Assembly: GCF_009754915.1 (NCBI RefSeq)
Contig: NZ_WPIK01000001.1
Location: 124,001 to 188,000 of the forward strand
DNA: 64,000 nt
Origin: Mucilaginibacter arboris
Lineage (GTDB): Bacteria; Bacteroidota; Bacteroidia; Sphingobacteriales; Sphingobacteriaceae
Direction of reading: 5' to 3'
Positions 1 to 63,525 of this stretch are shown here, in pieces; the stretch's first letter is position 1; every line of letters begins with the position of its first letter. The notes beneath the pieces are model-generated. The model did not search any database and was not told the origin of the DNA. It worked only from the letters and a program-made list of their open reading frames with translations. The position numbers were made by a program, and so were the translations under genes.

Positions 1-342
1 GATGAAGCTGTGCAGCGTTTTGCCGATGTGGAAAAAGCAAAAGGCGTTTACCACGGCATCAACATGAAACTGATGAAATCGGCTGGAATGTATGAAGGAT
101 ACCGGATGATTTTAAAAGCCAAAGAATCAGGTTTAAAAGTATTGATTGGCTGCATGAGCGAAACGAGTTGTGCCACTTTAGCTGCCGCCGCTTTGGCCCC
201 GCTGTGCGATTGGGCTGATTTGGACGGGCCGTTCCTCACCAAAAACAACCCTTACCAAAACCCTGATTTTGCTGATGGAAAATATGTGCTAAAAGAAGCA
301 TTTGGTTTGGGTTTGCGGTCGGTTGAAGGTTTGGAGTTGTGA
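1..342 (+). CDS. Dipeptide epimerase (enolase superfamily), C-terminal part
   Basis: The reading frame is open from base 1, so the gene starts before the window and only its last 113 residues are seen. The segment INMKLMKSAGMYEGYRM, then GCMSETS and DLDGPFL, matches the end of the enolase-superfamily barrel in L-Ala-D/L-Glu epimerases, which convert murein-derived dipeptides. The second lysine of the family (in NMKLMK) is present. The catalytic N-terminal half is not visible, so substrate choice is inferred. An exact copy of the 12-mer repeat (290-301) lies in frame near the C-terminus and encodes LKEAF. Confidence 0.8.
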   Translation, partial: DEAVQRFADVEKAKGVYHGINMKLMKSAGMYEGYRMILKAKESGLKVLIGCMSETSCATLAAAALAPLCDWADLDGPFLTKNNPYQNPDFADGKYVLKEAFGLGLRSVEGLEL

Positions 343-504: not shown

Positions 505-518
505 GGTAAAAGAAGCAT
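505..518 (+). repeat. GGTAAAAGAAGCAT repeat
   Basis: Exact copy of the 14-base repeat, ending on the first base of the stop codon of the minus-strand M56 gene. Lone copy without a second arm. Confidence 0.85.
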
Positions 519-2479
519 TACGGTTTGCTTGTATCTGTAGCTTTTTTACCTTTTTTAGTGGTTATTTCGACAACACCATTTTTACCTTTATCACCATACT
601 TTGCAGTTGCAGTAGCACCGTTCCAAACGCTGATGTTTTCGATATCATTTGGATTTATTTTGACTAAAACATCTTTATCTATTTCTTTTCCGTCTAACAA
701 ATAAATCGGGTCGATGCCCATAATTTTAGATTGAATACGGACTACATCTGCTGGAGGGCGTTGGCGTGCAGAATCTTTTCCACCAAATCCACTCATCGTC
801 ATATTATCTATATTCATGTTTAAGGCTTTTGCGCGCTTGATAACGCTATCTTCATTCATAAACCTTACAGTGCGTTTAACTGTCGTTTTTCCATAAGTAG
901 TTGTTTCATTGTTACCATTGGTGAATGAAAAATTAATCGGCATCGTATAAGCAACTCTTACCGGTTTGCCATTTTGTGTTCCTGGAATCCAGTCTGGCGA
1001 TTCTGATAAAACACGTATAGCTTCTTCTCCGCATCCTCCGCCAATGTCGCGCAGCACTTTTATGTTATTTAATTTACCATCTTTCTCTACAATAAAAGAA
1101 ACGATTACACGGCCTTGCGTTTTTTGATCTTTAGCTTCCTTTGGATAACGGATGGCTTTAGATAAATAATTTCCAAATGCTGCTTGGCCACCAGGAAAAG
1201 TTGGCAGTTTTTCTACAGCTGCAAAAGACACAATAGAACTATCAGTAGTTGAAGGAAAATTATACTTTGCAACTAACTTATTAACGCGCGTCATATCGAG
1301 AAGAATAATCAAAGGAGTTTTATTTTTTAGATCCGAAAAGCTCGTTGTTATTGTTACATATCCTACAAGTTCAAAAGTTAACAAATCGCCTTCCGTATAA
1401 TCCGTTAATTTAAAGCTTCCTTCTTGATTTGTATTAGCAGAATTGCCTTTTTTAGCATAGGAAACTTTGACATTAGCTAAGGGATCGCCATTAACATTAA
1501 CCACTTTCCCTTTTAAAGTCGATGCTGTTTTTATCCTACTTTTTTCTGTAGAAGCTGGTTCAGCAAGAGAGCTTGCCTGTTTGCTAATATCCTGCGCTAC
1601 TTCCGTCAGCGTTGCATCACTGCTGATTTTATCTGAAATTTTACGAATGGTTTTCTGCTCGCTTACGGTTGCTGAAGTCAGGATCAGCATGGCTACAAAA
1701 AGTGGCGCTGATAAACCATATTTAAGCAGCGCGCTCCGGCGGGAAGGGTTTTTATGCAGCATCATGATGCGTTGTTTTAAAAGTGAGTGGTTAAAAAAAC
1801 TGTTGGTTAAGGTATTTGGCTGAACATTCATGGTTTGGCTAAGCAGTAACAGTGCATAATCTGATTTATCGACCCCGAAACTGAGGGCATTACGGTCGGC
1901 AATAAATTCATGAATGTATTTGATAGCTTTCCGGTAGAAATAAATTACCGGGTTAAACCAGTTGAGGATGGCTAATACTTCAAACAAAAGCACATCGGCA
2001 GAATGAAATTGAATGGCATGAACCCTTTCATGTTGCAGGATAACATCTTTTTGCGGCAGGTTTTCATCAACCTTGATCTTACCAAAAAAGGAAAAAGCGC
2101 TTCCGTTTTCTTCCGATTGCATGTACCTTTTCAGCTTAACAAAACGATAAAATAAGCGTGCTAAAAGAAGCATGGCTACTGCCCAGTAAACTACCGAAAA
2201 AAATTGAGAAATGGTAAAACCACTTTCTGTTGCTGGTGAAACCCGATAAACAAAACCAGGATCTATATAATAAATGGTTTGCTGTACTTTTTGTGTGATA
2301 AACAGGTTTTTAACCCATTCTGCCTGCATCATTGGAATGAAAAATGATAGCAGCGCCGCCGAAACCAGGTAAATGCGGTTGAGCATAAAATAGGTTTCCT
2401 TGCGCAAAAGCAGGAGATAAAACCCGTAAAACAGCGCTAAATACAGGTTTGCCAATATTAGATAGTGCCACCAGTTCAT
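518..2479 (-). CDS. BlaR1-like M56 metallopeptidase with TonB and plug-like C-terminus
   Basis: A 653-residue membrane protein. Residues 1-115 hold three hydrophobic segments; HERVH at 150-154 is the zinc HExxH motif, with a likely third ligand in HEFIADRNA near 191. A further hydrophobic segment near 255-270 is followed by a carboxypeptidase-regulatory-like domain (about 320-395), a TonB C-terminal domain (about 425-520, beginning at FPGGQAAFGNYL) and a tail (about 585-645) resembling the plug of TonB-dependent receptors (IYLLDGKEI, NPNDIENISVW, YGDKGKNGVVEITTK). The family senses envelope signals and cleaves its cognate BlaI-type repressor, here the gene two bases upstream. What it senses is unknown. 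Confidence 0.88.
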   Translation of the reverse strand: MNWWHYLILANLYLALFYGFYLLLLRKETYFMLNRIYLVSAALLSFFIPMMQAEWVKNLFITQKVQQTIYYIDPGFVYRVSPATESGFTISQFFSVVYWAVAMLLLARLFYRFVKLKRYMQSEENGSAFSFFGKIKVDENLPQKDVILQHERVHAIQFHSADVLLFEVLAILNWFNPVIYFYRKAIKYIHEFIADRNALSFGVDKSDYALLLLSQTMNVQPNTLTNSFFNHSLLKQRIMMLHKNPSRRSALLKYGLSAPLFVAMLILTSATVSEQKTIRKISDKISSDATLTEVAQDISKQASSLAEPASTEKSRIKTASTLKGKVVNVNGDPLANVKVSYAKKGNSANTNQEGSFKLTDYTEGDLLTFELVGYVTITTSFSDLKNKTPLIILLDMTRVNKLVAKYNFPSTTDSSIVSFAAVEKLPTFPGGQAAFGNYLSKAIRYPKEAKDQKTQGRVIVSFIVEKDGKLNNIKVLRDIGGGCGEEAIRVLSESPDWIPGTQNGKPVRVAYTMPINFSFTNGNNETTTYGKTTVKRTVRFMNEDSVIKRAKALNMNIDNMTMSGFGGKDSARQRPPADVVRIQSKIMGIDPIYLLDGKEIDKDVLVKINPNDIENISVWNGATATAKYGDKGKNGVVEITTKKGKKATDTSKP

Positions 2480-4674: not shown

Positions 4675-4707
4675 GCCGGTAAAAGAAGCAATGCTTCTTT
4701 TACCGGC
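4675..4707. repeat. GAAGCAT hairpin (near-perfect palindrome)
   Basis: GCCGGTAAAAGAAGCA (4675-4690) is followed at once by its reverse complement preceded by one base, giving 16-base perfect arms around a single A. It is immediately followed by CAAAAAACAGG, resembling the sister form of the repeat. It lies 27 bases before the M28 peptidase start. Confidence 0.88.
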
Positions 4708-6131: not shown

Positions 6132-6155
6132 GATGCTTCTTTTATCAGGTAAAAG
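6132..6155. repeat. GATGCTTCTTTTATC repeat with partial second arm
   Basis: The exact 12-mer ATGCTTCTTTTA (6133-6144) is followed by TCAGG and TAAAAG, the outside-in form of the repeat (TTTTA-short head-TAAAA). It lies between the M28 gene and the small minus-strand gene that ends at 6159. Confidence 0.8.
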
Positions 6156-7676: not shown

Positions 7677-7690
7677 GGTAAAAGAAGCAT
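7677..7690 (+). repeat. GGTAAAAGAAGCAT repeat
   Basis: Exact 14-base copy occupying the spacer between the acyltransferase start codon and the Nudix stop codon, within an apparent minus-strand operon. Confidence 0.85.
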
Positions 7691-8274: not shown

Positions 8275-8317
8275 GGTAAAAGAAGCATTGGATTATAGAC
8301 CGAATGCTTCTTTTACC
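8275..8317. repeat. GAAGCAT hairpin overlapping the metK 3' end
   Basis: GGTAAAAGAAGCATT (8275-8289) and AATGCTTCTTTTACC (8303-8317) are perfect 15-base arms around a 13-base loop. The right arm lies inside metK and encodes its VKEAFGL end, while the left arm is intergenic. Confidence 0.88.
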
Positions 8318-19210: not shown

Positions 19211-19751
19211 AATTGAAGAAACCACCGTAGTACACGAGTTTTCTCCTAGGATGTACCAGCAATTTCAGGAAATTGTAAAGCGTTATCCGCCAGAACAACC
19301 TAAAGCAGCCTTATTGCCAATTTTACATGTAGTACAGGCAGCGTTTGGCTGGCTTAGTGTTGATGGAATGGACAAAGTTGCTTCTTACTTAGATATTCAG
19401 CCGATTGAGGTTTACGAGGTCGCTTCTTTTTATACCATGTATTTTTTACGTCCACAGGGAAAATACATGCTGGAAGTTTGCCGTACAGGCCCTTGTTGTT
19501 TGGTAGGGGCAGAAAAGATCATGAAATACATAGAACACAAGTTAGGCGTAAAAGAAGGTGAGGTAACGCCTGATGGACTTTTTAGCTGGAGAGGTGTAGA
19601 ATGTTTGGCTGCCTGTGGCTTTGCTCCGGTTTTACAGATCGGGCCCGAATACACTTTCTATGAAAATTTGACGGAAGAAAAAGTTGATCAGCTGATAGAG
19701 AAATTAGGTGGTAAAAGAAGCATCGAGGCAAATCAGCAACTGACAAATTAA
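19203..19751 (+). CDS. nuoE: NADH-quinone oxidoreductase subunit E
   Basis: A 182-residue thioredoxin-like subunit binding the N1a 2Fe-2S cluster; the four cysteines are in CRTGPCC and CLAACGF. The C-terminus ends GGKRSIEANQQLTN, where GGKRSI is encoded by an exact repeat copy (19713-19726), so the last residues look like a repeat-derived extension. nuoF starts one base later. Confidence 0.96.
   Translation: MLKIEETTVVHEFSPRMYQQFQEIVKRYPPEQPKAALLPILHVVQAAFGWLSVDGMDKVASYLDIQPIEVYEVASFYTMYFLRPQGKYMLEVCRTGPCCLVGAEKIMKYIEHKLGVKEGEVTPDGLFSWRGVECLAACGFAPVLQIGPEYTFYENLTEEKVDQLIEKLGGKRSIEANQQLTN
19713..19726 (+). repeat. GGTAAAAGAAGCAT repeat inside nuoE
   Basis: Exact 14-base copy read in the KRSI frame at the C-terminus of NuoE. 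It is the only exact copy between 8.3 and 21.1 kb. Confidence 0.85.
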
Positions 19752-21125: not shown

Positions 21126-21168
21126 AGGTGATAAAAGAAGCATCGTTAGCATGCTTCTTTTATCACCT
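21126..21168. repeat. GAAGCAT hairpin between nuoF and nuoG
   Basis: AGGTGATAAAAGAAGCAT (21126-21143) and its perfect 18-base reverse complement (21151-21168) around a 7-base loop, followed by AAAAATAAA. The same 18-base arms occur at 37237-37329. It lies inside the 101-base nuoF-nuoG gap and could weaken transcription past nuoF. Confidence 0.9.
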
Positions 21169-33527: not shown

Positions 33528-33645
33528 ATGCTTTTTTTATCGGCATAAAATTAGCGCTTGTTCAAATTTAATATCAGCATTATTGGTAATGCTTCTTTTA
33601 TGCCTGTATTATTTGATCATGTTTTTTATGCGATAAAAGAAGCAT
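33528..33645. repeat. Cluster of three GAAGCAT repeat copies
   Basis: A one-mismatch copy at 33528-33550 (ATGCTTTTTTTA-TCGGCA-TAAAA), an exact copy at 33589-33600 (ATGCTTCTTTTA) and an inverted exact copy at 33634-33645 (TAAAAGAAGCAT). The last two form a loose hairpin with a 33-base loop. It fills the spacer after the DUF4159 gene. Confidence 0.85.
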
Positions 33646-37238: not shown

Positions 37239-37329
37239 GTGATAAAAGAAGCATTGTTGCCGTTATCATTCCAACGATAGGAGGAATCTTTATCAAAACG
37301 ATAGGTTTAAAATGCTTCTTTTATCACCT
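37237..37329. repeat. GAAGCAT hairpin enclosing a GACGATAGGAG-family copy
   Basis: Outer arms 37237-37254 and 37312-37329 are the same perfect 18-base pair as at 21126-21168. The 57-base loop contains a fragment (37262-37294, with CCAACGATAGGAGGAATCTT) of the other repeat family. Followed by AAAAATTATT. It separates convergent ispF and the GapN-like gene. Confidence 0.9.
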
Positions 37330-39064: not shown

Positions 39065-39096
39065 GATGCTTCTTTTACCGGTAAAAAATCAGCATC
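39065..39096. repeat. Full outside-in repeat element
   Basis: GATGCTTCTTTTACC (39065-39079) meets GGTAAAAAATCAGCATC (39080-39096): an imperfect palindrome with head ACCGGT. It may show the complete unit of the family. It fills the 79-base gap between the transporter and GapN-like genes. Confidence 0.85.
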
Positions 39097-41145: not shown

Positions 41146-42148
41146 TTTTAATGATTTTTTTTACTTCGTCCGCACTCATTGTCGTGGCATCGCTTTCAAT
41201 AAATAATTTGCCGTAAGCTGCTGCTGTGGCAAACTCCAATGCTTCTTTTACCGGTTGTTTTTGGTACAAACCATAAATTAAGCCTGCCATAAAGCAATCG
41301 CCGCTTCCAACTTTATCTACAATATGAGCCGCTGAATATTCTTTCGATACTTCCAGTTTCCCGTCGGTGTACAAGGTAGTGTAATATTGGATACCAGGAT
41401 CACCAAAACGAAAAGTATTAGCTACATATTTACATTTTGGATAAGTTTTAATAAGTGCTTCTGAAGTTTTTATCGCATGATTCAGGTAATTTTCTTTGGT
41501 ACCGATTTCGTGTATATTTTCATCTACTGCCGTTCCCAGCATTTGATTTGCTGCCCAAACATTGCCCATAATTAGATCGCAATATTGTGCCAGATTAGGC
41601 ATAATTTCAATCGGCTGTTTACCATACTTCCACAATTTTGCGCGATAATTCAAATCCAGCGAAATGAAGATATTTTTTTGAGAAGCCACTTTTAAAGCTT
41701 CTTCACAAACATCTGCTACATTTTGAGTGATAGCCGGACAAATTGCGCTGAAATGAAACCAGGAAACATCTTCAAAAACAGCATTCCAATCTATCGTTCC
41801 AGGTTGCAATTCTGCATACGAAGAATAAGCACGATCGTAAATTACGCCTGCATTTTTAAGGTCTTTTCCCTTCGGAAGATAGTACGTTCCAATTCGGTTT
41901 CCCTGATAAATAATGGCAGAAGTATCAACTTTTCTTTCCTGAAGATACTGAACGATCTGTTCCGACAACATGTTTTCCGGCAAAGCTGTTAAATAAGCCG
42001 AAGGCAAATCCCAAAGCGCCAAAGCTGTAGCAACATTCAATTCTGCACCGCCAACATAAAAAGGAAGGGAATTTTCTTTTAGCCAGTTTCCTTCGGTATC
42101 CGGACAAATCCGCAGCAACAATTCGCCGAAACTGAGTATTTTGCTCAT
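41135..42148 (-). CDS. kdgK: 2-keto-3-deoxygluconate kinase (PfkB family)
   Basis: Start chosen at ATG 42148 (MSKILSFGELLLRICP), two bases from the uxaC stop; a 20-residue longer frame would overlap uxaC. The 337-residue PfkB fold has the substrate part VGGAELNVATALALW and the catalytic DKVGSGDCFMAGLIYGL. It phosphorylates KDG made by UxaA. An exact repeat copy (41239-41250) encodes PVKEALEF near the end. Confidence 0.92.
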   Translation of the reverse strand: MSKILSFGELLLRICPDTEGNWLKENSLPFYVGGAELNVATALALWDLPSAYLTALPENMLSEQIVQYLQERKVDTSAIIYQGNRIGTYYLPKGKDLKNAGVIYDRAYSSYAELQPGTIDWNAVFEDVSWFHFSAICPAITQNVADVCEEALKVASQKNIFISLDLNYRAKLWKYGKQPIEIMPNLAQYCDLIMGNVWAANQMLGTAVDENIHEIGTKENYLNHAIKTSEALIKTYPKCKYVANTFRFGDPGIQYYTTLYTDGKLEVSKEYSAAHIVDKVGSGDCFMAGLIYGLYQKQPVKEALEFATAAAYGKLFIESDATTMSADEVKKIIKNEQ

Positions 42149-43602: not shown

Positions 43603-43616
43603 GGTAAAAGAAGCAT
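43603..43616 (+). repeat. GGTAAAAGAAGCAT repeat
   Basis: Exact copy in the 72-base gap between uxaC start and uxaA stop, the only gap between 42 and 46 kb longer than four bases. Confidence 0.85.
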
Positions 43617-45275: not shown

Positions 45276-45278
45276 GTT

Positions 45279-46793
45279 TTAAATTTTGTTTTTTACAGAT
45301 AGCCCTTCAGCCGCTTTTAAAGCCCCTTCGCTGGTTATTTTAGCAAAATATTGTTGTACGGCATCTTCAAATCCTGGCAGAAGCGTTAAATCTGTTCCCC
45401 AAAGCTCGGTATTATTTAATATGGTATAAGTCAAAATATCAGCAGGAATACTGTTTTTAAGGTCATAAAAAAAGCGTGCCTGATCATCATTCACCGGATA
45501 ACTTTTTCCGTTTACCCCGCCGTAAAATTTGCCGTTTTCTTCTTTCTGAACCTGCATAAAAGCGATGTACGCAGCAAAACCTAAAGCAATACGGGCAGGT
45601 ATTTGATCGGATTTTTGATAATGCTTTACCAAAACAGGCACAACACGCATTTTAAGCTTGGCGGAAAATTGTACCGTAATAGCAATCCATTGATGTTTAA
45701 TGTGCGGATTACGGAAACGATCTAAAACCTGGCCTGCAAACCCATCCGTTTGCTGTTTGCTTACTTCGTACGGAATTGACGATGCTATTTCTTCTTTCAT
45801 CAACTCACTTACAAAACTCGAAAACGTTTCATCGTCCATTGCTTCTTTTACCGTATTAAAACCTGCAAGAAAAGCCAGGCCACAACTTAATGTATGCGTA
45901 CCATTTAACATTCTCAGTTTTAGTTCCCGGTAAATTTCAATATCCGGCGCAATAATTACACCTTTATCAGCTTCAGCAAAACTTAGAACAGCCTTTACTT
46001 TTTCATTGCCTTCTATCGCCCATAAGCGGTAAACTTCGGAAACGGTCAACAGCTTATCTTCATAACCGGCTTTTTCCTGGAAAGCAGAAACCGTTTCTGC
46101 ATCAGGCTTTCCGGGAACAATCCGATCAACTAATGAATTGCAGAAAGAGTTACTTTTATCCAACCAATCTATCAGTGCTGCATCCAACTGGTTAAAAGCA
46201 GCTAATTCCAACACGATCGATTTTAATTTATCACCGTTGCCAACAATTAATTCTGTTGGCACAATCACCATTCCGCTTTCTTCGCTTCCGTTAAAGGCTT
46301 TATATCGTTCTACTAAAAAAGCTAATAATTTACCTGGAAAAGAAGTTGGCGGACTTAATTTAATATCTTCTTTAACCAACTGAATCCCAACTTCTGTAGT
46401 GTTGGAAATCACAATTTTCATTTCCGGTTTTTGGGCACATTTTAAAATCTCCTCCCAATGTTCTCCTGCTGATAAAACACGGCTGATAGCAGAACAGATA
46501 ATATTCTCTTCTATTTTCTGTCCGTTTTCAATGCCTTTTACACATAAAGTATATAAGCCGTCCTGATCGTCAAATTCGGAAGAGCTTCCTGTTGAAGTTG
46601 ATTTTACCACCACAATCCGTCCGTTAAACACACCTTCACGATTGGCTTTATCAATAAAATAATCTGGCAAACCTCTAAGCAATACACCTGTTCCAAACTG
46701 TAAAACTTTCTCCGGAAGGCTTAAAATTGCTTCATCAGGAACGATTACTTCCTGCGACTGAATTTCTTTTAAATTAGACTTTGATAAAATCAT
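45279..46793 (-). CDS. uxaB: Tagaturonate reductase
   Basis: A 504-residue long-chain mannitol-dehydrogenase-type enzyme reducing tagaturonate to altronate with NADH. LQFGTGVLLRGLPDYFIDKA is the nucleotide-binding start; KLRMLNGTHTLSCGLAFLAG carries the catalytic lysine region. Family neighbours reduce fructuronate, but the uxaA/uxaC partners favour tagaturonate. The 158-base space upstream contains a repeat copy and could hold its own promoter. Confidence 0.94.
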   Translation of the reverse strand: MILSKSNLKEIQSQEVIVPDEAILSLPEKVLQFGTGVLLRGLPDYFIDKANREGVFNGRIVVVKSTSTGSSSEFDDQDGLYTLCVKGIENGQKIEENIICSAISRVLSAGEHWEEILKCAQKPEMKIVISNTTEVGIQLVKEDIKLSPPTSFPGKLLAFLVERYKAFNGSEESGMVIVPTELIVGNGDKLKSIVLELAAFNQLDAALIDWLDKSNSFCNSLVDRIVPGKPDAETVSAFQEKAGYEDKLLTVSEVYRLWAIEGNEKVKAVLSFAEADKGVIIAPDIEIYRELKLRMLNGTHTLSCGLAFLAGFNTVKEAMDDETFSSFVSELMKEEIASSIPYEVSKQQTDGFAGQVLDRFRNPHIKHQWIAITVQFSAKLKMRVVPVLVKHYQKSDQIPARIALGFAAYIAFMQVQKEENGKFYGGVNGKSYPVNDDQARFFYDLKNSIPADILTYTILNNTELWGTDLTLLPGFEDAVQQYFAKITSEGALKAAEGLSVKNKI

Positions 46794-46901
46794 TTTTAGG
46801 TTATTCTTATTGGTATTCGCTTAATTCAGGTTATTGAAGAGCTGAAAAGTATCGATTTTTTAGTCAGTATCAAAATTTACACAATACTGTGCTGTCCTGC
46901 A

Positions 46902-46924
46902 ATGCTTCTTTTATCGGGTTAAAA
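46902..46924. repeat. ATGCTTCTTTTA repeat with partial second arm
   Basis: Exact 12-mer followed by TCGGGT and TAAAA (outside-in form). It lies in the 158-base gap between the pectinesterase and uxaB. Confidence 0.8.
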
Positions 46925-46951
46925 TGTATATCTTTTCGTAAGCTTATTCAT

Positions 46952-47977
46952 TTATTTCAAAGGGTCCCACTGATTGTCAAAAGCCCAGTTTGCGGTAATT
47001 TGTTGTGCTGATGGCGCGTGTTCAGCTTCTATTAGATTGTTTTTTATCCAGGCATAATCTCCGCCTGAATGATGGCAATTGTAGTAATAAGAGCGGTTTC
47101 CCCATTGCACACCTTTCGAACTGGCTGCCTGGTAAATTGGCGCATCCGCCATTTCTTTAGCAAACAGGCAATCAATCAGATAAAACTGCGAATCGAGGTG
47201 ATATCTTCCTAACTTAAATCCTTCATCTCCACGAAAAACACAATTTTTAAGCACTGTTTTTTCATTCTTATTTTTGGAGCCATCATGCCAGATTGCCGCT
47301 TCTTTATTATGACAGATAAAAGTACAGTTTTCGGCATAAGCCCAGCCGCGCGGACAGTAGAAATCTACGCCACCTTCCATCGTGCAGTTTTGGAAATAAT
47401 ACATGCCGGAAACACCATTCCACGGACTAACGGTATCGCCTCCATAAGCTCGCAAAACGCAATTAATCACTTTTAATCGCGTAGTTTGGGTTGACCGCAG
47501 CGCCATTTGATGGCCGTTTTTAGTTATTGTTTTTTGTGGAGATCCTTTTCCGTTCGGACAATCAAGCAACGTATCTCTTTGAAAATCCCTTCCGTAAGAA
47601 TTAATAATGCTTAAGTTTTTTAACGTGATGTCGTTTCCGCTTAAATTAATCGTTGCCACGCCCCAATCGCCCGTATTATTGCACAACCACATATCCCTCG
47701 AAATTGCCTGCGTAATTATTGTATTGCTGCTGTTATCGCCTTGCAAAACAATATGGTTTTTGGTGATGGAAACCTTTTCCGCGTAAGTTCCTTTTCGAAT
47801 TAAAATAACCCGGTCTGTTGCTGATGAATCAGGCAAACTATTAATTGCTGCCTGTATCGTTTTAAAATCTCCTTTTCCGTTTGCATCGACCACAATTTGT
47901 TTTTGTGCCGATGCTTCTTTTATCAGCATAAAATTAAGAATGATGAAAAAACATCGGTAAAAGAAGCATTTTCTCAT
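46952..47977 (-). CDS. Secreted pectinesterase (CE8)
   Basis: A 341-residue right-handed beta-helix enzyme that removes methyl groups from pectin. IVVDANGKGDFKTIQAAINS opens the family; YCPRGWAYAENC and WHDGSKN are further parts. The signal peptide (about residues 1-25, MRKCFFYRCFFIILNF then MLIKEASAQ) is encoded almost wholly by two inverted copies of the dispersed repeat. An inner ATG (residue 17) would give a truncated signal. Confidence 0.9.
   Translation of the reverse strand: MRKCFFYRCFFIILNFMLIKEASAQKQIVVDANGKGDFKTIQAAINSLPDSSATDRVILIRKGTYAEKVSITKNHIVLQGDNSSNTIITQAISRDMWLCNNTGDWGVATINLSGNDITLKNLSIINSYGRDFQRDTLLDCPNGKGSPQKTITKNGHQMALRSTQTTRLKVINCVLRAYGGDTVSPWNGVSGMYYFQNCTMEGGVDFYCPRGWAYAENCTFICHNKEAAIWHDGSKNKNEKTVLKNCVFRGDEGFKLGRYHLDSQFYLIDCLFAKEMADAPIYQAASSKGVQWGNRSYYYNCHHSGGDYAWIKNNLIEAEHAPSAQQITANWAFDNQWDPLK
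47911..47969. repeat. Inverted pair of repeats within a signal peptide
   Basis: Exact copies ATGCTTCTTTTA (47911-47922) and TAAAAGAAGCAT (47958-47969) face each other across 35 bases. On the gene strand they read as CFF(Y) near the start and (L)IKEA at the signal-peptide cleavage region. Confidence 0.88.
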
Positions 47978-47979
47978 CG

Positions 47980-49893
47980 TTACTTGGCTTTTGCAGGAAC
48001 TTGTTTAATCAGCCAATTCACCAAATCCTGACAAGCTTCGTAATTCTGATAATCAGCCGGAATCTTGCGGCCATTAGTATATTCATTATAAAACCATGGA
48101 TCGCCAACGGCAAAAACAGAACCTTTACCATATTTTGCTGTCGCGATAATTACATCCTTTCCATCAGTAAACTCTGCAACGGCAGGCGGTGTTACCTTTA
48201 AGGTAGAAATTTCTTTAATGTGGACTTTCTTGCCCGTTTTAAAAATCGGATCATTGGCCGGCATCTGGAAATCACCTGTGGTAAGATCGGTAGTTACTTT
48301 ATTCCGGCTGTCTTCATTAAACCGGATTCCAAATTTTCCTGCCAAAATGTTCAGATGTTCCAGGTCGCAATTGCCAACATCGTTCGCCAATAAAACCAAT
48401 ACACCGCCAGCTTTTACCCATTCTGCTATCGCTGTTGCATCCTGCTGGTTTACATAATTCGGCTTATCCGTTTCCTTTTGGGTATCCGGATCAACAATAA
48501 TGTAAATATCAGAGCCTTTTAAATTAGCTGTAGTTGGCGCAGCATATAATGTTGCTGTTTTTACGCCGCGATAATTAAAAGCACATTTAAAGAAATAAAA
48601 GCCGTTATTGTCCATTTCGTCCCATTTGTAATGGAAAGAAATTGTGCGGCCGGTTACATCTTTCATGTGTTCATTGTTGAAGTAAGAATCCAGCATGGCT
48701 GTTTGTCCTTTGCCTGCTTTCGGGATTTCCGCTAATTCCATTTCATTTGCAGCCTGCAGGAACGCGCCAACACCTTTTGGGTCGTTGGTTACCACTTTTT
48801 CTTTCGTGTAGTATTCAAAGCTGCCATCGCGGTACGGATTTCCGCCTAAACCTGCAACAGCAACCGTTCCTTTTAAATTGGTGTTGCCGCTGGCATCCGT
48901 TTCTATAAATTCCTTAACTGTTCCGTCGTACCCTTTTTTTGCAACCGCTTTGTATTTTTCGGGGAGATAACCCAAACGTGTTCCCTTAGCCAGCGTGTAA
49001 ACAAACATGCTGGAAGCGGAGGATTCTAAATAATTGCCTTTTTCAGTTGCCTTGTCCAAAACCTGGTACCAAACGCCGGATTTCGGATCTTCATATTTTT
49101 GAACGGCAGCAGCAAAACGGTTTAAAATATCCAGCAAAGCTTTTCGCTGCGGATGATTTTCCGGCAGATACTCCAGCACATCTACCAAAGCCATTCCGTA
49201 CCAGCCCATTGCCCTTCCCCAAAAATTGGGCGAAGTTCCCGTTGTTTTATTAGCCCATTTTTGCTGTTTTGATTCGTCCCAGCCATGGTAAAGCAAACCC
49301 GTTTTCGGATCGCGCGCATGCTTTTCCATCAGAATAAACTGCTTGGTAATATCATCAAAATCAGAAGGTTCATCAAAAACGGAAGCATATTCGGCATAAA
49401 AAGGTTCGCCCATGTACAAGCCATCAAGCCACATTTGGTTAGGGTAAACTTTTTTATGCCAGAAACCACCTTCAGTAGTACGCGGCTGGTTTTTTAATTG
49501 CCCGCGCAACTGACTTAATGCTTTGTAATATTTTTCTTGTCCGGTTACACGGTAAAGCAGCAATAAAGAACGACCTGTTTTAATATTGTCAATATTACTG
49601 TCCTCGGCTTTATAGCCCGTAATCTTACCTTCATTATCTACCAGCTTATCTATGCTTTTTTGGATATAGCGGTAATACTCTGCATCGGCAGTACGCTTCC
49701 AAACGCCAGCCATTCCTTCCAGCAAAACGCCCTGATCGTAAGACCATCTTGCAAATTTGGTTGAACTGGTATCCGGCCATACTTTCATGGCCGTTTTTGC
49801 TACTTTTTCTGATAGCGATTGCGCCCGAAGGCTATAAGCCGTACCAAGCAGAAATAACAGGACGATGCTTCTTTTAAGAGTGTTTTTTTTCAT
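47980..49893 (-). CDS. Secreted GH105 unsaturated rhamnogalacturonyl hydrolase with C-terminal GATase-like domain
   Basis: A 637-residue exported protein (signal MKKNTLKRSIVLLFLLGTAY). Residues about 30-380 form the (alpha/alpha)6 barrel of GH88/GH105: WSYDQGVLLEGMAGVW, WLDGLYMGEPFYAEY, WGRAMGWYGMALVDVLEYLP. These enzymes free unsaturated galacturonate from lyase products. About 420-630 form a DUF4350-like domain (IAEWVKAGGVLVLLANDVGN, KYGKGSVFAVGDPW). The KRSI in the signal peptide is encoded by an exact repeat copy (49865-49876). Confidence 0.9.
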   Translation of the reverse strand: MKKNTLKRSIVLLFLLGTAYSLRAQSLSEKVAKTAMKVWPDTSSTKFARWSYDQGVLLEGMAGVWKRTADAEYYRYIQKSIDKLVDNEGKITGYKAEDSNIDNIKTGRSLLLLYRVTGQEKYYKALSQLRGQLKNQPRTTEGGFWHKKVYPNQMWLDGLYMGEPFYAEYASVFDEPSDFDDITKQFILMEKHARDPKTGLLYHGWDESKQQKWANKTTGTSPNFWGRAMGWYGMALVDVLEYLPENHPQRKALLDILNRFAAAVQKYEDPKSGVWYQVLDKATEKGNYLESSASSMFVYTLAKGTRLGYLPEKYKAVAKKGYDGTVKEFIETDASGNTNLKGTVAVAGLGGNPYRDGSFEYYTKEKVVTNDPKGVGAFLQAANEMELAEIPKAGKGQTAMLDSYFNNEHMKDVTGRTISFHYKWDEMDNNGFYFFKCAFNYRGVKTATLYAAPTTANLKGSDIYIIVDPDTQKETDKPNYVNQQDATAIAEWVKAGGVLVLLANDVGNCDLEHLNILAGKFGIRFNEDSRNKVTTDLTTGDFQMPANDPIFKTGKKVHIKEISTLKVTPPAVAEFTDGKDVIIATAKYGKGSVFAVGDPWFYNEYTNGRKIPADYQNYEACQDLVNWLIKQVPAKAK

Positions 49894-49900
49894 GGAAAAA

Positions 49901-51553
49901 TTATTTCATAACCAGGGCCTTGCTATCGGCGCCGGCGCTAAATGCTGTTTTGGTTTTTGCTTTGGAAGCATCTGTATTGGTAACTTTTATGCCGCTGCTT
50001 TGTCCGTTTACATTAAAAAGCAGATCGGCATTGGAGTTATATTGAAGATTATCCAAAGAAATTAAACTTGAATTCTGAATATTTACAACCGGGTTAGTAT
50101 CAGCCACAATTACCCTGACATTTTTAAAATTGATGTTTTTCGCTTCCTGCAAATCGATACCTTTTTTAGCTGTTAAAACCATATTGTCCATATAAATATC
50201 GCTGATTTTCATTTCCGGCAAACCACGGATAAAAACAGCTTTGGAAGCCCCATTACAAACAATATTGCTGATGTGAAAATCACGAAAGATCGGTGTTTCT
50301 TCGGTTACTGGCAATAATACCACTTTTGGTGCTTCGCGGTTTTCGCCAGCCAACGGAACGGGATCTTTTGCCATGTAATACATATCAAACAAAATAGCTT
50401 CGCCGCCAATATCTTTCATGGCGATGTCTTTTACAAATATTTTTTCTACAATTCCGCCGCGGCCACGGTTGGTTTTAAAACGAAGGCCAACGTCTGTTCC
50501 GATAAAAGAACAGTTGGAAACAAACAAATTACGTGCGCCGCCGCTCATTTCGCTGCCGATAACAAAACCACCATGTGCATGATAGACAATACAGTTTTTT
50601 ACGATCATATTTTCGGTTGGCTTGCCCCTTTTGCGCCCATCGGCATCGCGCCCGGATTTAATGCAGATCCCATCATCGCCTACATCGAATGTACTTCCTT
50701 CAAGCAGTACATTTTTACAAGATTCTACATCTATCCCATCACCATTTTGTGCATACCACGGGTTTTTTGCATAAACGTTTCTAACGGTTAAATCTTCGCA
50801 TAATAAAGGATGCAAGCACCAGGCAGGAGAATTTTGAAAGGTTACGCCTTCCAGCAAAACTCTTTTACAATTGGTAAGGACTAATAAATTCGGACGTAAA
50901 AAATCTTTAATATCTGCGTAATCTGCAGCAGTTTTACCCGGAAGCAAGACACCTGCGTTTTCTATTTTTGATCCTTTTAAAGATTGTTCGGATGGATACC
51001 AGGTTTTTTTATCATCACTTAACAAACCGCCTGAAGCTACTTTATTTTTCCATTGCGTTTCTGTCAGCTTATCTTTTTTAACCATTCGCCAGGCATCGCC
51101 GTTCCCATCAATAATTCCGGTTCCTGTTATGGCAATATTGGTAAGGTTAGTACCTGATATGGGTGACTGGTTTCTTACGGCCGGCCTTCCTTCCCAGTTT
51201 CCTTCAACTAATTTATATTGCTTAAAATCATCTGTAAACTGCAAAACTGCATCTCTGTTAATATGTAGGTTTACATTACTTTTCATTTCGACCGGACCGG
51301 TAATCCACATCCCGCCCGGAACTAAAACCACACCACCGCCTTTATTGCTGCAAGCAGTAATGGCATCATTAATACTTTTGGTATTTAGTGTAATGCCATC
51401 TGCTTTTGCACCATATTTTAAGATGTTGAAAGTATCGGTCTTAAAACTGGTTTTCTGTATTTGGGGGAGTTTATTCCAACTATAAGATTGTGAAAATACT
51501 TCTTTGGAGAAGCACATAAAAACTATCGATAAAAGAAGTATTGATCTTTTCAT
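49901..51553 (-). CDS. Secreted polygalacturonase (GH28)
   Basis: A 550-residue right-handed beta-helix glycosidase with signal peptide MKRSILLLSIVFMCFSKEVF. GAKADGITLNTKSINDAI opens the family; NGDGIDVESC and GDDGICIKSG carry the catalytic aspartates, HGGFVIGSEMSGG the conserved histidine and RFKTNRGRGG the substrate loop. It cuts galacturonate linkages in pectin. It is the promoter-proximal gene of the run. A one-mismatch repeat (51530-51541) encodes ILLLS of the signal. Confidence 0.94.
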   Translation of the reverse strand: MKRSILLLSIVFMCFSKEVFSQSYSWNKLPQIQKTSFKTDTFNILKYGAKADGITLNTKSINDAITACSNKGGGVVLVPGGMWITGPVEMKSNVNLHINRDAVLQFTDDFKQYKLVEGNWEGRPAVRNQSPISGTNLTNIAITGTGIIDGNGDAWRMVKKDKLTETQWKNKVASGGLLSDDKKTWYPSEQSLKGSKIENAGVLLPGKTAADYADIKDFLRPNLLVLTNCKRVLLEGVTFQNSPAWCLHPLLCEDLTVRNVYAKNPWYAQNGDGIDVESCKNVLLEGSTFDVGDDGICIKSGRDADGRKRGKPTENMIVKNCIVYHAHGGFVIGSEMSGGARNLFVSNCSFIGTDVGLRFKTNRGRGGIVEKIFVKDIAMKDIGGEAILFDMYYMAKDPVPLAGENREAPKVVLLPVTEETPIFRDFHISNIVCNGASKAVFIRGLPEMKISDIYMDNMVLTAKKGIDLQEAKNINFKNVRVIVADTNPVVNIQNSSLISLDNLQYNSNADLLFNVNGQSSGIKVTNTDASKAKTKTAFSAGADSKALVMK

Positions 51554-53456: not shown

Positions 53457-53498
53457 ATGCTTCTTTTACAATACTTTTTTAAGCAATACTTCTTTTAT
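53457..53498. repeat. Two tandem repeat copies before the permease gene
   Basis: Exact ATGCTTCTTTTA (53457-53468) and the variant ATACTTCTTTTA (53486-53497), in the same orientation 29 bases apart; decayed relatives lie between and after. They occupy most of the 71-base gap before the MBL gene. Confidence 0.82.
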
Positions 53499-54233: not shown

Positions 54234-56078
54234 TTACTTGTTTTTAAAGTAAACCGTAAAACGTGTCCCTTTGTTTAATTCGCTTTTTACTTCAATTTTG
54301 CCTCCTAAGGCTGTAATCTGTGCCTGCACAATATACAAGCCTAAACCCTTACCTTCTGCTTTGTTGCTAAAGCGTTTGTACAAACCAAAAAGTTGTTGCC
54401 CGTATCTGTTTAAATCGATGCCAATGCCGTTATCTTCAAAAATTAAAACAGCATGGCCCTGCTCCTGATAAGTTTTTATGTTGATAACCAGCCTTCGTTC
54501 GTCGCTTCTGTATTTCAGTGCGTTAGATAAAAAGTTCAGTAAAATACTTTCTAAATAACTTTCTTTAAACAGGATTACTGGCGCTTCGGCAAAATCTTCT
54601 TCTATTTGCGCGTTTGCAGTTTCAATCAAGTAAGCAAGGGATGCTTTTGCTTTGCCCCAAACTTCGGCAATAACTAAAGGTTGGGCAATTTTATCGTCCT
54701 CACTTTTAATCATTAAAATATCAATGATATCATTTACCGTGATATTTAATTTATTGGTCGAGCTTTTTACGGCCTCAATCAGTTCCAGCGTATCTTCATC
54801 TTTAATTGCTTCGGTATCCAGCAAACTTAAAAGCCCGGTTAAATTAGCCAGCGGTGCGCGTAAATTGTGCGAGATAACGTAAGAAAACTGTTTCAGTTCA
54901 TTGTTGCTTTCCTGCAATTCGCGGACGAAGTTTTCATTTTCTGCTTCCCGGCTTTTACGTGCGGAAACATCCCGGTAAACAGCTACAAAATGGGTGATGT
55001 TGCCTTGACCGTCTTCTACCGGACTAATGCTGTAATCTACCCAATAATCGCTTTTGTTATTTTTATAGTTGATTAAACGGGTTTCAAATGTTTCGGGTTG
55101 AAAATGATTAACGGCAGATGCTTCTTTTACCGGGTATTTTTTATGAAGCAATGCTGGCTTTTGTCCTACAATTTCCTGTGCAGCATAACCGGTTAAATGG
55201 TTAAAAGCGGCATTGCTGTAAACAATTTCTGAATTATAAAAATCTGTTGAACTGTTTTTGGTGATGATGATACCATCCGCACTGTTGTTAATGGCCGATT
55301 GCAATAAGAGCAACTGCTGCTGAACCTCGTCTGTGATGATGGGTTGCTGCTGCTCATTTTGTTTCGTTAAATCAACAATAACAGCAACCCGGCAAGTTTT
55401 GTTATTAAACTGAAACAGGCTGGTAAAAACCTCCACTGCCGTTACTTCCCCTCTTTTATTTACATGCTGCCACTTGCCGGCAAAGCTTTTGTTACTGGCT
55501 GCTTCTGTTTTTTGCTGTAAATCAAAAATGGTCATTGCAGCAAACTCAACCCAGGTGTAACCGTAGAAATGTTCGGCAGCTTCGTTTGTTAGCAGTAGTT
55601 TTTTATTGTCAACCTCGTAAACCAGCACCGGCAAAGGATTGCGGTTAAACAGGTTTTTATATTGTTGTCCGGCTGTAGCAACCTCCAGGTTTTTTATCCG
55701 CCGGGCTACTGCATGTGTAATGCTTTTATATAAAATACTACTGTTTAGGTTCTCTTTTGCAATTACATCCTGCGCGCCTGCAAGTATCGCTTCTGTAGCA
55801 AGTGTTTCATTCGGATGGTCTGTTAAAATAATAACTGCCGGATGATTTGCTTTCTTTAAAAGTTTGTTAAATAATTCTTTTTCGGATGTTTGTTCAAACT
55901 TCAGGCTGATAATTAATACATCAAACGCAACCGAAGAATTAATTTCTACAGCTTTTGTTAAAAACTGGGAATAAACAATAACCGGATTTTGGAAGAATTT
56001 ATTAATATAGCTGTTCAGGAGCACAAAATTTGCTGCGTCTTCTTCAACAATCAAAATATTTAAGGTATGCCTGCCCAT
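54234..56078 (-). CDS. PAS-containing histidine kinase with degenerate receiver domain
   Basis: A 614-residue kinase. Residues 1-125 resemble a receiver domain (ILIVEEDAANF, VIILTD, LAGAQDVIAK) but the phospho-acceptor position is serine 58 (FDVLIIS) instead of aspartate. Two PAS domains follow (about 140-250 and 265-380). HisKA carries ISHNLRAPLANL; the ATPase part has LLNFLSNALKY, FEDNGIGIDL and GKGLGLYIVQ. No transmembrane segment is visible, so it is a cytoplasmic sensor. No response regulator is adjacent. An exact repeat copy (55118-55129) encodes VKEAS in the second PAS domain. Confidence 0.9.
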   Translation of the reverse strand: MGRHTLNILIVEEDAANFVLLNSYINKFFQNPVIVYSQFLTKAVEINSSVAFDVLIISLKFEQTSEKELFNKLLKKANHPAVIILTDHPNETLATEAILAGAQDVIAKENLNSSILYKSITHAVARRIKNLEVATAGQQYKNLFNRNPLPVLVYEVDNKKLLLTNEAAEHFYGYTWVEFAAMTIFDLQQKTEAASNKSFAGKWQHVNKRGEVTAVEVFTSLFQFNNKTCRVAVIVDLTKQNEQQQPIITDEVQQQLLLLQSAINNSADGIIITKNSSTDFYNSEIVYSNAAFNHLTGYAAQEIVGQKPALLHKKYPVKEASAVNHFQPETFETRLINYKNNKSDYWVDYSISPVEDGQGNITHFVAVYRDVSARKSREAENENFVRELQESNNELKQFSYVISHNLRAPLANLTGLLSLLDTEAIKDEDTLELIEAVKSSTNKLNITVNDIIDILMIKSEDDKIAQPLVIAEVWGKAKASLAYLIETANAQIEEDFAEAPVILFKESYLESILLNFLSNALKYRSDERRLVINIKTYQEQGHAVLIFEDNGIGIDLNRYGQQLFGLYKRFSNKAEGKGLGLYIVQAQITALGGKIEVKSELNKGTRFTVYFKNK

Positions 56079-57436: not shown

Positions 57437-59119
57437 ATGCCTTCGTTTACTTCAACTCCTATTTTTAAATGGCTGTATTTTTTTATCGGTGCCGCTGTTC
57501 TGCTTAATTTCAGCGGATTGTTTATTACCATTCTTGGTTTAGACGGGCCATTATATGCCTGTATTGCCAAAAGCATGGTGCAGCGGCACGATTATGTAAA
57601 CCTGTTTTCGCAGGGGAAAGACTGGCTGGATAAACCGCATTTTCCATTCTGGGTTACGGCTTTATCATTTAACCTTTTTGGTTTTACAACCTGGGCTTAC
57701 AAGCTTCCTGCTATTTTATTTGTTTTGATGGGAGGAGTTTACACTTATCTCTTCTGCAAAAACCTGTACAATAAAGAGGTTGCGTTGTGGTCGGTTTTGA
57801 TTTTTTTAACTGCTGAACATCTCATCATTTCCAACAATGATGTTCGTGCCGAACCTTATTTAACGGGTTTAATTATCGCTTCGGTTTATCATTTCTATAA
57901 AACGGTTGCTAAAAACAGCATTGGACATTTAATTATCGCCTGCGTTTTTGCCGCTTGCGCCGTAATGACGAAAGGTATTTTTGCCCTGATCCCGATTTTT
58001 GGCGCTTTTGCCGGAGAATATATCCTCACCAAAAACTGGAAACAGCTTTTTAACTGGCGATGGCTGCTTGCTTTTATTTTGGTGATGCTGTTTTTAGCAT
58101 CCGAAATTTACTGCTTGTACGAGCAGTTTGATCTGCACCCGGAGAAATTAGTTTTCGATCAGCATAACGTTTCCGGTATTAAATTCTTTTTCTGGGACAG
58201 CCAGTTTGGCCGCTTCTTTAATAACGGGCCGATAAAAGGGCACGGCGATCCGTTTTTCTTTTTTCATACCTTGCTTTGGGCGTTTATTCCCTGGTCGGTT
58301 TTGCTTTATATTGCGGTTGTTCAGTTCTTCCGAAATCAACACAAACAAAAACGTGAATGGTATTGCATCTGCGGAGCGCTGCTTACTTTCTTTGTTTTTT
58401 CGGCCTCCAAATTCCAACTGCCGCATTATATTACCATTGTGTTTCCGTTTTTTGCGATCATCACGGCGCAGTATTTAATTGGCATCAAAACAGCAAAAGG
58501 ATTGCAGGCTATCCGCATTACACAAAGCGCGGTTTTAGCTTTGCTGATCCTGATCGTTCTGCTTCTCCAGTATTTTTACCGGGCAGAAAATTTTACGTTC
58601 TTTACCATTTTGCTGCTGCTCATTACCGCCGTCCTCCTCATTTTTGTATCGGTAAAAGAAGCATGGGGCAGTAAATATCAACTGTTATTTCAATCGGTTT
58701 TGGTTTCGATATTCATCAACCTTTACCTCAACCTCAATTTTTATCCTTCCCTTTTACATTATCAATCTGGCAGCGAAGCCGCATTTTATATCGATAAAAA
58801 CAGCATGGGTAATTTGCCGGTAGCACAATTGCAGGAAGAAGAATATTCGCACGCCTTGGAATTTTACTTAAACCGGCCGCTTTATTTAATTAATGAAGAC
58901 GGAAAAGGGAACCTTCCTTCAAAACCTTATTTGTTGTATGCTTCGAAAGAAAACATAAACCAAATAGTGGCAAAAGGCTGGAAAATCAGACCGGTGAAAA
59001 CGTTTAATGATGAGTTGGTAACGCGTTTAACAGGAAAGTTTTTGAACCGGAAAACGCGGAAAGAACAACTGGGGCAGAAAGACCTGGTTTTGGTGGAAAA
59101 GGATGTTTTGGCAAAATAA
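57437..59119 (+). CDS. GT39-family membrane glycosyltransferase (ArnT-like)
   Basis: A 560-residue protein with about 12 hydrophobic helices. LGLDGPLYACIAKSM carries the catalytic-type aspartate of GT39/ArnT enzymes, and WLDKPHFPFWVTALSFNLFG and ISNNDVRAEPYLTGLIIA follow. These move sugars from lipid carriers to lipid A or other acceptors; the acceptor is unknown. An exact repeat (58653-58664) encodes VKEAW. Confidence 0.87.
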   Translation: MPSFTSTPIFKWLYFFIGAAVLLNFSGLFITILGLDGPLYACIAKSMVQRHDYVNLFSQGKDWLDKPHFPFWVTALSFNLFGFTTWAYKLPAILFVLMGGVYTYLFCKNLYNKEVALWSVLIFLTAEHLIISNNDVRAEPYLTGLIIASVYHFYKTVAKNSIGHLIIACVFAACAVMTKGIFALIPIFGAFAGEYILTKNWKQLFNWRWLLAFILVMLFLASEIYCLYEQFDLHPEKLVFDQHNVSGIKFFFWDSQFGRFFNNGPIKGHGDPFFFFHTLLWAFIPWSVLLYIAVVQFFRNQHKQKREWYCICGALLTFFVFSASKFQLPHYITIVFPFFAIITAQYLIGIKTAKGLQAIRITQSAVLALLILIVLLLQYFYRAENFTFFTILLLLITAVLLIFVSVKEAWGSKYQLLFQSVLVSIFINLYLNLNFYPSLLHYQSGSEAAFYIDKNSMGNLPVAQLQEEEYSHALEFYLNRPLYLINEDGKGNLPSKPYLLYASKENINQIVAKGWKIRPVKTFNDELVTRLTGKFLNRKTRKEQLGQKDLVLVEKDVLAK

Positions 59120-59704: not shown

Positions 59705-60439
59705 CTAATTAGTAAGGGCAATATCCACCACTTGCCCAATAATAATCAGCGCCGGATACGTTAACTTCTGTGTTTCCGCCATTTCCGGTAAATCTTTTAC
59801 CAAACCTTTTACAGATTTCTGCTTGGGTAAAGAAGCATGCTGGATAATTGCCGCCGGAACTGAACCTTTTCCTGCTTCTATATAAGTTGCTGCAATTTCC
59901 TGCAGCTTTTTCATGCCCATATAAATTACAACCGTTGCGTTGCTTTGCATGGCTAAACGCAGATCAGCAGAAAGCGAGCCGTCTTTTTTCGTTCCGGTTA
60001 TCGCCCAAACGCTTTCGCTTAAATTGCGGTGCGTTAGAGGAATATCTTCAAACCCGGAAGCCTGCATACTCGTAATTCCCGGGATAAAATAGGTTTTAAT
60101 ACCATGTTCACGGGCAAATAAAATTTCTTCAAATCCTCGCCCAAAAATAAACGGGTCGCCGCCTTTTAAGCGAATGACTTGTCCTTTTGCAAGAGCATAT
60201 TGTTTAATTAGTTCCAGGATCTTTTCCTGAGGCGTATATTCTCCGTAAGGTTGTTTGCCTACATAAACCAGCTCGCAATCTTTAGGCGCCAAATCCAGCA
60301 ATTGCTTATTGGCCAGGTTATCGTACAAAATAACTTTGGCCTGCTGCAATAATTTGTAAGCTTTAACGGTGATCAATTCAGGATCACCCGGACCAGCGCC
60401 AACAACATATAATTCAGGTTCTTTAGTTTCTTCGCCCAT
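59705..60439 (-). CDS. cobA: Uroporphyrinogen-III C-methyltransferase
   Basis: A 244-residue SAM-dependent enzyme that makes precorrin-2 for siroheme or cobalamin. VGAGPGDPELITVKAYKLLQ, VRLKGGDPFIFGRGFEE and GITSMQASGFEDIPLTHR are diagnostic. It is the stand-alone form without a CysG dehydrogenase part. The upstream repeat copy runs into the start codon: its terminal AT forms the first two bases of ATG at 60439. Confidence 0.95.
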   Translation of the reverse strand: MGEETKEPELYVVGAGPGDPELITVKAYKLLQQAKVILYDNLANKQLLDLAPKDCELVYVGKQPYGEYTPQEKILELIKQYALAKGQVIRLKGGDPFIFGRGFEEILFAREHGIKTYFIPGITSMQASGFEDIPLTHRNLSESVWAITGTKKDGSLSADLRLAMQSNATVVIYMGMKKLQEIAATYIEAGKGSVPAAIIQHASLPKQKSVKGLVKDLPEMAETQKLTYPALIIIGQVVDIALTN

Positions 60440-60451
60440 GCTTCTTTTACC
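60438..60451 (-). repeat. Repeat copy supplying the cobA start codon
   Basis: On the minus strand GGTAAAAGAAGCAT is followed by GGGCGAA; the ATG formed is the cobA start. The purine run AAAAGAAG lies only two bases before the ATG, too close for a normal ribosome-binding site. Confidence 0.85.
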
Positions 60452-62906: not shown

Positions 62907-62936
62907 ATACTGTTTTTATGCCGGTAAAAACAGTAT
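62907..62936. repeat. Sister-form hairpin between convergent genes
   Basis: ATACTGTTTTTA (62907-62918), loop TGCCGG, TAAAAACAGTAT (62925-62936): perfect 12-base arms. It fills the gap between the SMP-30 gene and the first Uma2 gene and starts on the stop codon of the latter. Probably acts as a terminator for both. Confidence 0.85.
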
Positions 62937-63511: not shown

Positions 63512-63525
63512 GGTAAAAGAAGCAT
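63512..63525 (+). repeat. GGTAAAAGAAGCAT repeat at the end of the second Uma2 gene
   Basis: Exact copy abutting the TGA stop of the Uma2 copy at 63525. The first Uma2 gene has the sister form at the matching place (62923-62936). Confidence 0.88.

Follow-up and report, generated by a model that had tools for sequence, protein, structure and literature searches.

The 12-mer ATGCTTCTTTTA is the core of a motif that is spread through the genome of Mucilaginibacter arboris and whose most likely function is that of a DNA uptake sequence similar to the USS of Haemophilus. The motif is abundant, restricted to the genus, bipartite in architecture, and neutral with respect to strand. It is maintained at orthologous sites, constrained at silent sites, and nearly absent from a contig of conjugative type that could itself be a binning contaminant. 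The window, which is the whole stretch of 64,000 nucleotides that was analyzed, belongs to a genome of 4.16 Mb (G000); G001 and G002 are its two congeners.

A preliminary description of the window had reported an inverted pair of the 12-mer in the signal peptide codons of a pectinesterase and further copies in the signal peptides of the next two secreted enzymes. Both observations were confirmed. Two exact copies face each other at 47911-47922 (+) and 47958-47969 (-) with 35 nt between them, and the neighboring GH88 and GH28 enzymes carry, respectively, an exact copy and a copy with one mismatch, both in signal peptide codons. The A/T-rich link that had been noticed between the arms is explained by the A/T tracts of both arms. 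The features of the locus are as follows.

46902..46913, + strand: intergenic core copy, flanked by the pectinesterase stop and a mannitol_dh-type (UxaB-like) gene; the first copy of the pair in G002 occupies the syntenic place
46952..47977, - strand: pectinesterase ORF (Pfam, PF01095), whose signal peptide overlaps the facing pair
47911..47922, + strand: core copy in the pectinesterase signal peptide that forms the first of the two facing arms
47929..47934, + strand: A/T tract TAAAAT of the 47911 copy, offsets +18 to +23 (read from the sequence, with the consensus from aligned copies)
47946..47951, - strand: A/T tract of the 47958-47969 copy, TTTTTT on the - strand, offsets +18 to +23 (sequence and consensus)
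47958..47969, - strand: core copy that forms the second of the two facing arms
47980..49893, - strand: GH88 ORF (Pfam, PF07470)
49865..49876, + strand: exact core copy, GH88 enzyme signal peptide (LKRSI)
49901..51553, - strand: GH28 ORF (Pfam, PF00295)
51530..51541, - strand: variant core ATACTTCTTTTA, one mismatch, GH28 enzyme signal peptide (ILLLS)

These genes form part of a pectin/uronate catabolism cluster (window positions 43623-51553; altronate dehydratase-type, mannitol_dh-type, pectinesterase, GH88, and GH28 genes) that is partly missing in both congeners. Near its start, a paralogous pectinesterase of G000 (L154, G000:C1:112692-113096) likewise carries two copies of the motif family, one of which probably lies upstream of the true start. 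The body of the pectinesterase gene is flanked by the direct copies at 46902-46913 and 47911-47922, and most of this body is absent in G001 (L209:9843-9901); recombination between the copies, or gain of a gene between them, is possible.

The copies in the three genes represent a tiny fraction of a family that extends over the whole genome, which the preliminary description overlooked. Other copies in the window are listed below.

8277..8315: two exact cores back to back, 15 nt apart
21132..21162: two exact cores back to back, 7 nt apart
33589..33645: two exact cores facing each other across 33 nt
37243..37323: two exact cores back to back
62907..62936: two family-B cores (ATACTGTTTTTA) facing each other across 6 nt
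290..301, - strand: exact core copy
507..518, - strand: exact core copy
2162..2173, - strand: exact core copy
4691..4702, + strand: exact core copy
6133..6144, + strand: exact core copy
7679..7690, - strand: exact core copy
19712..19723, - strand: exact core copy
39066..39077, + strand: exact core copy
41239..41250, + strand: exact core copy
43605..43616, - strand: exact core copy
53457..53468, + strand: exact core copy
55118..55129, + strand: exact core copy
58653..58664, - strand: exact core copy
60438..60449, + strand: exact core copy
63514..63525, - strand: exact core copy

The window contains 27 exact copies of ATGCTTCTTTTA in all, and 85 copies when up to two mismatches are allowed, compared with 18.3 ± 4.1 in shuffles. 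Genome-wide, 1,947 exact copies were counted (982 and 965 by strand), whereas the reversed control, the same 12-mer read backwards, was found 1 and 0 times. The two congeners have 2,114 and 1,118 exact copies. Within-genome statistics were collected from a 464-kb sample of G000 using six family cores, which yielded 351 copies; by extrapolation from this sample, the family comprises about 3,000 copies in the genome.

Among 60 genomes searched, only the three congeners were rich in ATGCTTCTTTTA, the other 57 having 0 to 9 copies, and in 399 genomes from 25 genera of the family Sphingobacteriaceae, the same three were rich and the other 396 had 0 to 12 copies. A 25-nt pattern run against GTDB contigs matched at least 81 stretches; among the matches listed, all came from two MAG records, an uncultured Mucilaginibacter MAG and a lichen MAG named Sphingobacteriaceae bacterium. 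The same pattern was present in 0 viral contigs in IMG/VR. When 10-mers were ranked de novo in 20-kb pieces, the motif was the top word in 17 of 20 pieces from G000 (the exceptions being L033, L044, and L047), 15 of 16 from G002, and 0 of 40 from other genomes. A search for dialects revealed no motif of this kind in 24 genomes of the same family sampled at 20 to 127 kb each or in 20 genomes of other families sampled at 7 to 20 kb each. A few sampled genomes have repeated words that look local (for example, L166, L254, and L264). In G008, from another genus of the family (L166, L218-L221), GCGAAGCAACT and AACTTTAAAC are weakly repeated, mostly within one 20-kb piece, and in G052, from another family (L264, G052:C4:150001-170000), a word close to CGGGAAGATCG was counted 11 times within 20 kb.

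Alignment of all copies gave the full consensus [AG]AT[AG]CT(TC/GT/TT)TTTTA-YC-[AG][CG]C-n-six A/T. The word is thus bipartite, consisting of the core AT[AG]CT(TC/GT/TT)TTTTA followed by YC and, about one helical turn further, an A/T tract. A purine precedes the core, offset 13 is C in 70 to 80% of copies, and the tract occupies offsets 18 to 23, with 98 to 100% A/T at offsets 19 to 21; it was recovered independently in G000, G001, and G002. ATGCTTCTTTTA is the most frequent 12-mer of the 464-kb sample, and its 207 perfect copies compare with 124 for all 36 single-mismatch variants summed. The second (B) core, AT[AG]CTGTTTTTA, has 714 copies with the same flanks as ATGCTTCTTTTA, and the two main cores are bridged by the rarer ATGCTTTTTTTA. 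The ratios of A and B cores differ among the three congeners. No conservation was detected beyond about 30 nt in the aligned copies.

The mean density of the family in the sample is 0.76 copies per kb. Its strands are balanced (177/174 in the 464-kb sample; also 114/118 and 41/36) and the motif has no relation to GC skew in the sampled sequence, which rules out a polar replication mark. By the calls of a home-made codon-usage script, which mis-set some starts and on which all coding and intergenic densities rest, the family is about 8-fold denser between genes (3.05 per kb) than in gene bodies (0.29 to 0.36 per kb), and 200 of the 351 copies lie outside genes. Convergent spacers are the densest (37 copies in 6.1 kb), followed by codirectional spacers (99 in 32.7 kb) and divergent spacers (31 in 14.1 kb). 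Inverted pairs within 80 nt are in roughly 3- to 4-fold excess, with 25 facing and 18 back-to-back pairs versus 5.9 expected for each, while direct pairs within the same distance number 12 versus 11.8 expected. Motif-free tracts of up to 9.9 kb span conserved operons; the largest on contig 1 are runs of conserved genes, such as an NADH-dehydrogenase-type cluster (read from the proteins). The 13 kb that surround a Y1-transposase gene (about 196866-197207) on C56 are unusually dense, with 20 copies (L248, G000:C56:190001-203000).

Copies are also tolerated as coding sequence, as the preliminary description had proposed. Read directly, the 12-mer is free of stops in five of its six frames, and the family has 146 coding copies, versus 2.6 in codon shuffles, that use these five frames; the TAA frame accounts for 0 of the 146. 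A rival account, which we consider very improbable, takes the copies for transcription terminators or for hairpins that serve RNA processing and treats those in genes as by-products. The ranking of convergent above divergent spacers would fit it, as would the facing pairs with 6- and 17- to 21-nt spacers, which could form hairpins. However, most copies are single, and 132 of these single copies are coding. Copies in genes show no bias between sense and antisense (72 and 79), and the A/T tract would be left unexplained. Moreover, the mRNA of the signal peptide pair folds no better than shuffles (z, -1.24), which rules out an RNA hairpin at that site.

The preliminary description went further, reading the inverted repeat as an element that specifically builds the signal peptides of secreted enzymes. 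Two results favor that reading. In signal-peptide-like genes, picked by a crude rule with the first 75 nt counted, 14 copies were found in 6.45 kb (2.17 per kb, or about 1.5 per kb once about 4 of the 14 that look like start-codon mis-extensions are removed), so starts are enriched over gene bodies. In addition, homologues were compared at 21 of 23 loci, and all 19 from outside the genus have unrelated signal peptides and 0 copies in their first 90 nt, the outcome that the preliminary description had named as support; the other two, both from G000, have two copies each. As the main function, the tie to pectinesterase or to signal peptides is nevertheless contradicted by the density maximum between genes and by the 1,947 copies in the genome. 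It is also contradicted by the congeners, where the pair is kept although the gene is lost. In G001 the facing pair persists (identical at 49 of 59 nt and at 25 of the 35 spacer positions), but its reading frame ends a few codons past the signal peptide, and no mature pectinesterase is left. In G002 the three pectin genes are absent, and a facing pair lies in the corresponding syntenic spacer. The densities between genes and the homologue and congener loci together rule out a signal-peptide-specific element, and we give that main function almost no credence. Signal peptides are merely a permissive coding niche for the motif, with a bystander role, and the genome-wide motif accounts for odd coding repeats such as that of the pectinesterase signal peptide.

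G000 and G002 were aligned over 189,301 columns (79.8% identity) and the fate of each copy was scored. For 91 of 118 G000 copies, both genomes have the motif (57 identical and 34 switched between family cores); the remaining 27 comprise 12 that differ gap-free and 15 with gaps nearby. From the G002 side, 91 of 124 copies are shared, 16 differ gap-free, and 17 have gaps. For comparison, random 12-column windows were identical in 387 of 3,736 cases. Inside the copies, codons for the same amino acid are identical in 171 of 187 cases, versus 131.2 ± 5.7 expected from the same codons elsewhere. The shared orthologous sites and the excess of silent-site identity show that the DNA word itself is maintained, and the gap-free changes indicate that many differences between the two genomes are substitutions and not insertions. 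As far as these codons indicate, the constraint acts on the DNA and not on the peptide.

REP/RAYT repeats are short, abundant, mostly intergenic, and arranged in inverted pairs, and the motif resembles them in all of these respects. The copies might then be insertions, single or in inverted pairs, of a mobile REP/MITE-like repeat spread by a Y1 (RAYT-type) transposase. G000 has two Y1_Tnp genes, one of which (on C56) has copies on both sides, and the alignment contains one clean 32-nt presence/absence. Unlike REP/RAYT repeats, though, the motif has no palindromic unit, differs between species by substitution instead of insertion (12 and 16 gap-free cases in G000 and G002), and has many coding copies, in five frames. 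Nor is sequence conserved past about 30 nt: facing pairs with 55- to 75-nt spacers share no conserved unit, spacers of similar size being 43% alike on average. Y1_Tnp was matched in 35 of 60 genomes, 32 of them without the motif, and the match in G002 is only weak. A mobile repeat is a highly unlikely explanation, and as the main cause it is ruled out by the gap-free differences, the unlike spacers, and the presence of Y1_Tnp in motif-free genomes.

Foreign DNA offers a further comparison. The conjugative-type contig C8 (G000:C8; 78,466 bp) has 2 copies versus 59.3 expected at similar G+C, as an uptake sequence predicts; C8 could be a binning contaminant, in which case its poverty in the motif would be uninformative. 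Four other stretches counted in the same way have 8 to 15 copies in 15 to 20 kb. The conjugation genes of C8 (L047, L271, L272, and L273) encode a TraG P-loop protein, TraM, DUF4138, a T4SS coupling protein, and MobC, and 8 of 10 proteins were matched in the Pfam scan. The contig also has ParA, a resolvase, and HsdM. Genes of G000 that do not align to G002 are not depleted of the motif (0.52 versus 0.41 per kb), whereas recent acquisitions should be poorer if the motif is an uptake sequence.

The near-absence from C8 would also fit binding sites of a genus-specific protein for chromosome organization, segregation, or repair (matS-, Chi-, or KOPS-like, or sites of a nucleoid protein), fixed by selection on chromosome function. 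So would a double-stranded element of core plus A/T tract that is spread over the sampled chromosome and kept at orthologous sites. We regard such sites as unlikely. The motif has no strand or GC-skew bias and therefore no KOPS- or Chi-type polarity, and chromosomal marks predict neither the stretches of up to 9.9 kb without a copy that cover conserved operons nor the preference for inverted pairs and gene ends. To our knowledge, it would be unusual for such marks to be limited to one genus and to come in two core variants side by side.

Under the uptake-sequence reading, a receptor of the competence machinery, on the surface or in the periplasm, would bind the core and the adjoining A/T tract on double-stranded DNA, and DNA of the own genus would be preferentially imported and recombined. 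Biased uptake together with homologous recombination would, through molecular drive, both multiply the copies and keep them at fixed sites. Copies would build up where the DNA is free to change, that is, in intergenic spacers, in inverted pairs at gene ends, and at permissive coding sites such as signal peptides. Both the bias of uptake and the existence of the receptor are inferred.

Homologues of ComEC, DprA, and YifB/ComM are present, and such genes also occur in genomes not known as competent. The Bacteroidota include a competent genus, Riemerella, in which ComEC and DprA are described as essential and a YifB-family ATPase as affecting transformation, and the same screen gave candidate outer-membrane proteins unlike known machinery (PMC8459023). 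The type IV pilus/T2SS ATPase family PF00437 (PilB/PilT-type) was not over the cutoff in any of the three congeners and was over it in 11 of 60 genomes, and the canonical uptake motor seems to be missing in the genus. If uptake is sequence specific, the lack of a detected PilB/PilT-type ATPase points to a receptor other than the pilins used by Neisseria and, by prediction, by Haemophilus. Because uptake is deduced from genomic pattern, and because no match was found to the pilus motor that both known families use, we do not claim membership in DUS or USS.

There is about an even chance that the motif represents a third, independently evolved uptake-sequence system, in the Bacteroidota, that does without type IV pili by using some other receptor in the outer membrane (perhaps TonB-linked or of SusC type, as the Riemerella mutants hint) and that has converged on the core-plus-A/T-tract design of Haemophilus. 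Titles and abstract openings in the open-license literature report no uptake sequence for Bacteroidetes, Bacteroidota, or Sphingobacteriaceae, and a search of that literature with the motif letters returned unrelated subjects only. If true, a third origin in a distant phylum would test whether such motifs arise by molecular drive wherever uptake is biased, and it would provide a handle on the unknown outer-membrane DNA importer of the Bacteroidota. Motif-tagged DNA could serve as a laboratory tool to transform such environmental bacteria.

Strong preference for an uptake motif has been described for species of two families, the Pasteurellaceae and the Neisseriaceae, with 1,465 USS cores in Haemophilus influenzae and 1,892 DUS in Neisseria meningitidis (PMC7811141); the copy number found here is similar in size. 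Riemerella columbina is described as preferring its own DNA, and the authors' k-mer table holds A/T-rich words only, with no motif of the kind seen here among the tabulated counts (PMC7965970). Like the motif, the DUS of Neisseriaceae occur in thousands of copies with clade-level dialects (PMC3630211, PMC2397512, PMC7371117), are placed permissively, and form inverted pairs at gene ends (PMC3630211, PMC2397512). They are atypical or low in ICEs, as the motif may be, to judge from the possibly contaminant C8, and Neisseria ICEs have been found by the same kind of uptake-motif contrast (PMC7371117). A DUS runs without a break for up to about 13 nt (PMC12616744) and is bound by ComP, whereas the motif described here is bipartite and its receptor putative. 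The USS of Pasteurellaceae, as described for H. influenzae, differs in having an unrelated core and two A/T tracts where the motif has one clear downstream tract; it also belongs to a different phylum. The congeners, unlike USS bearers, have no PilB/PilT-type ATPase over the cutoff, and uptake in them is proposed on genomic grounds. In other respects the two agree: both combine a nonpalindromic core with a downstream A/T tract at about 1 copy per kb, occur on both strands and in inverted pairs, and change by point mutation (PMC7811141, PMC12616744).
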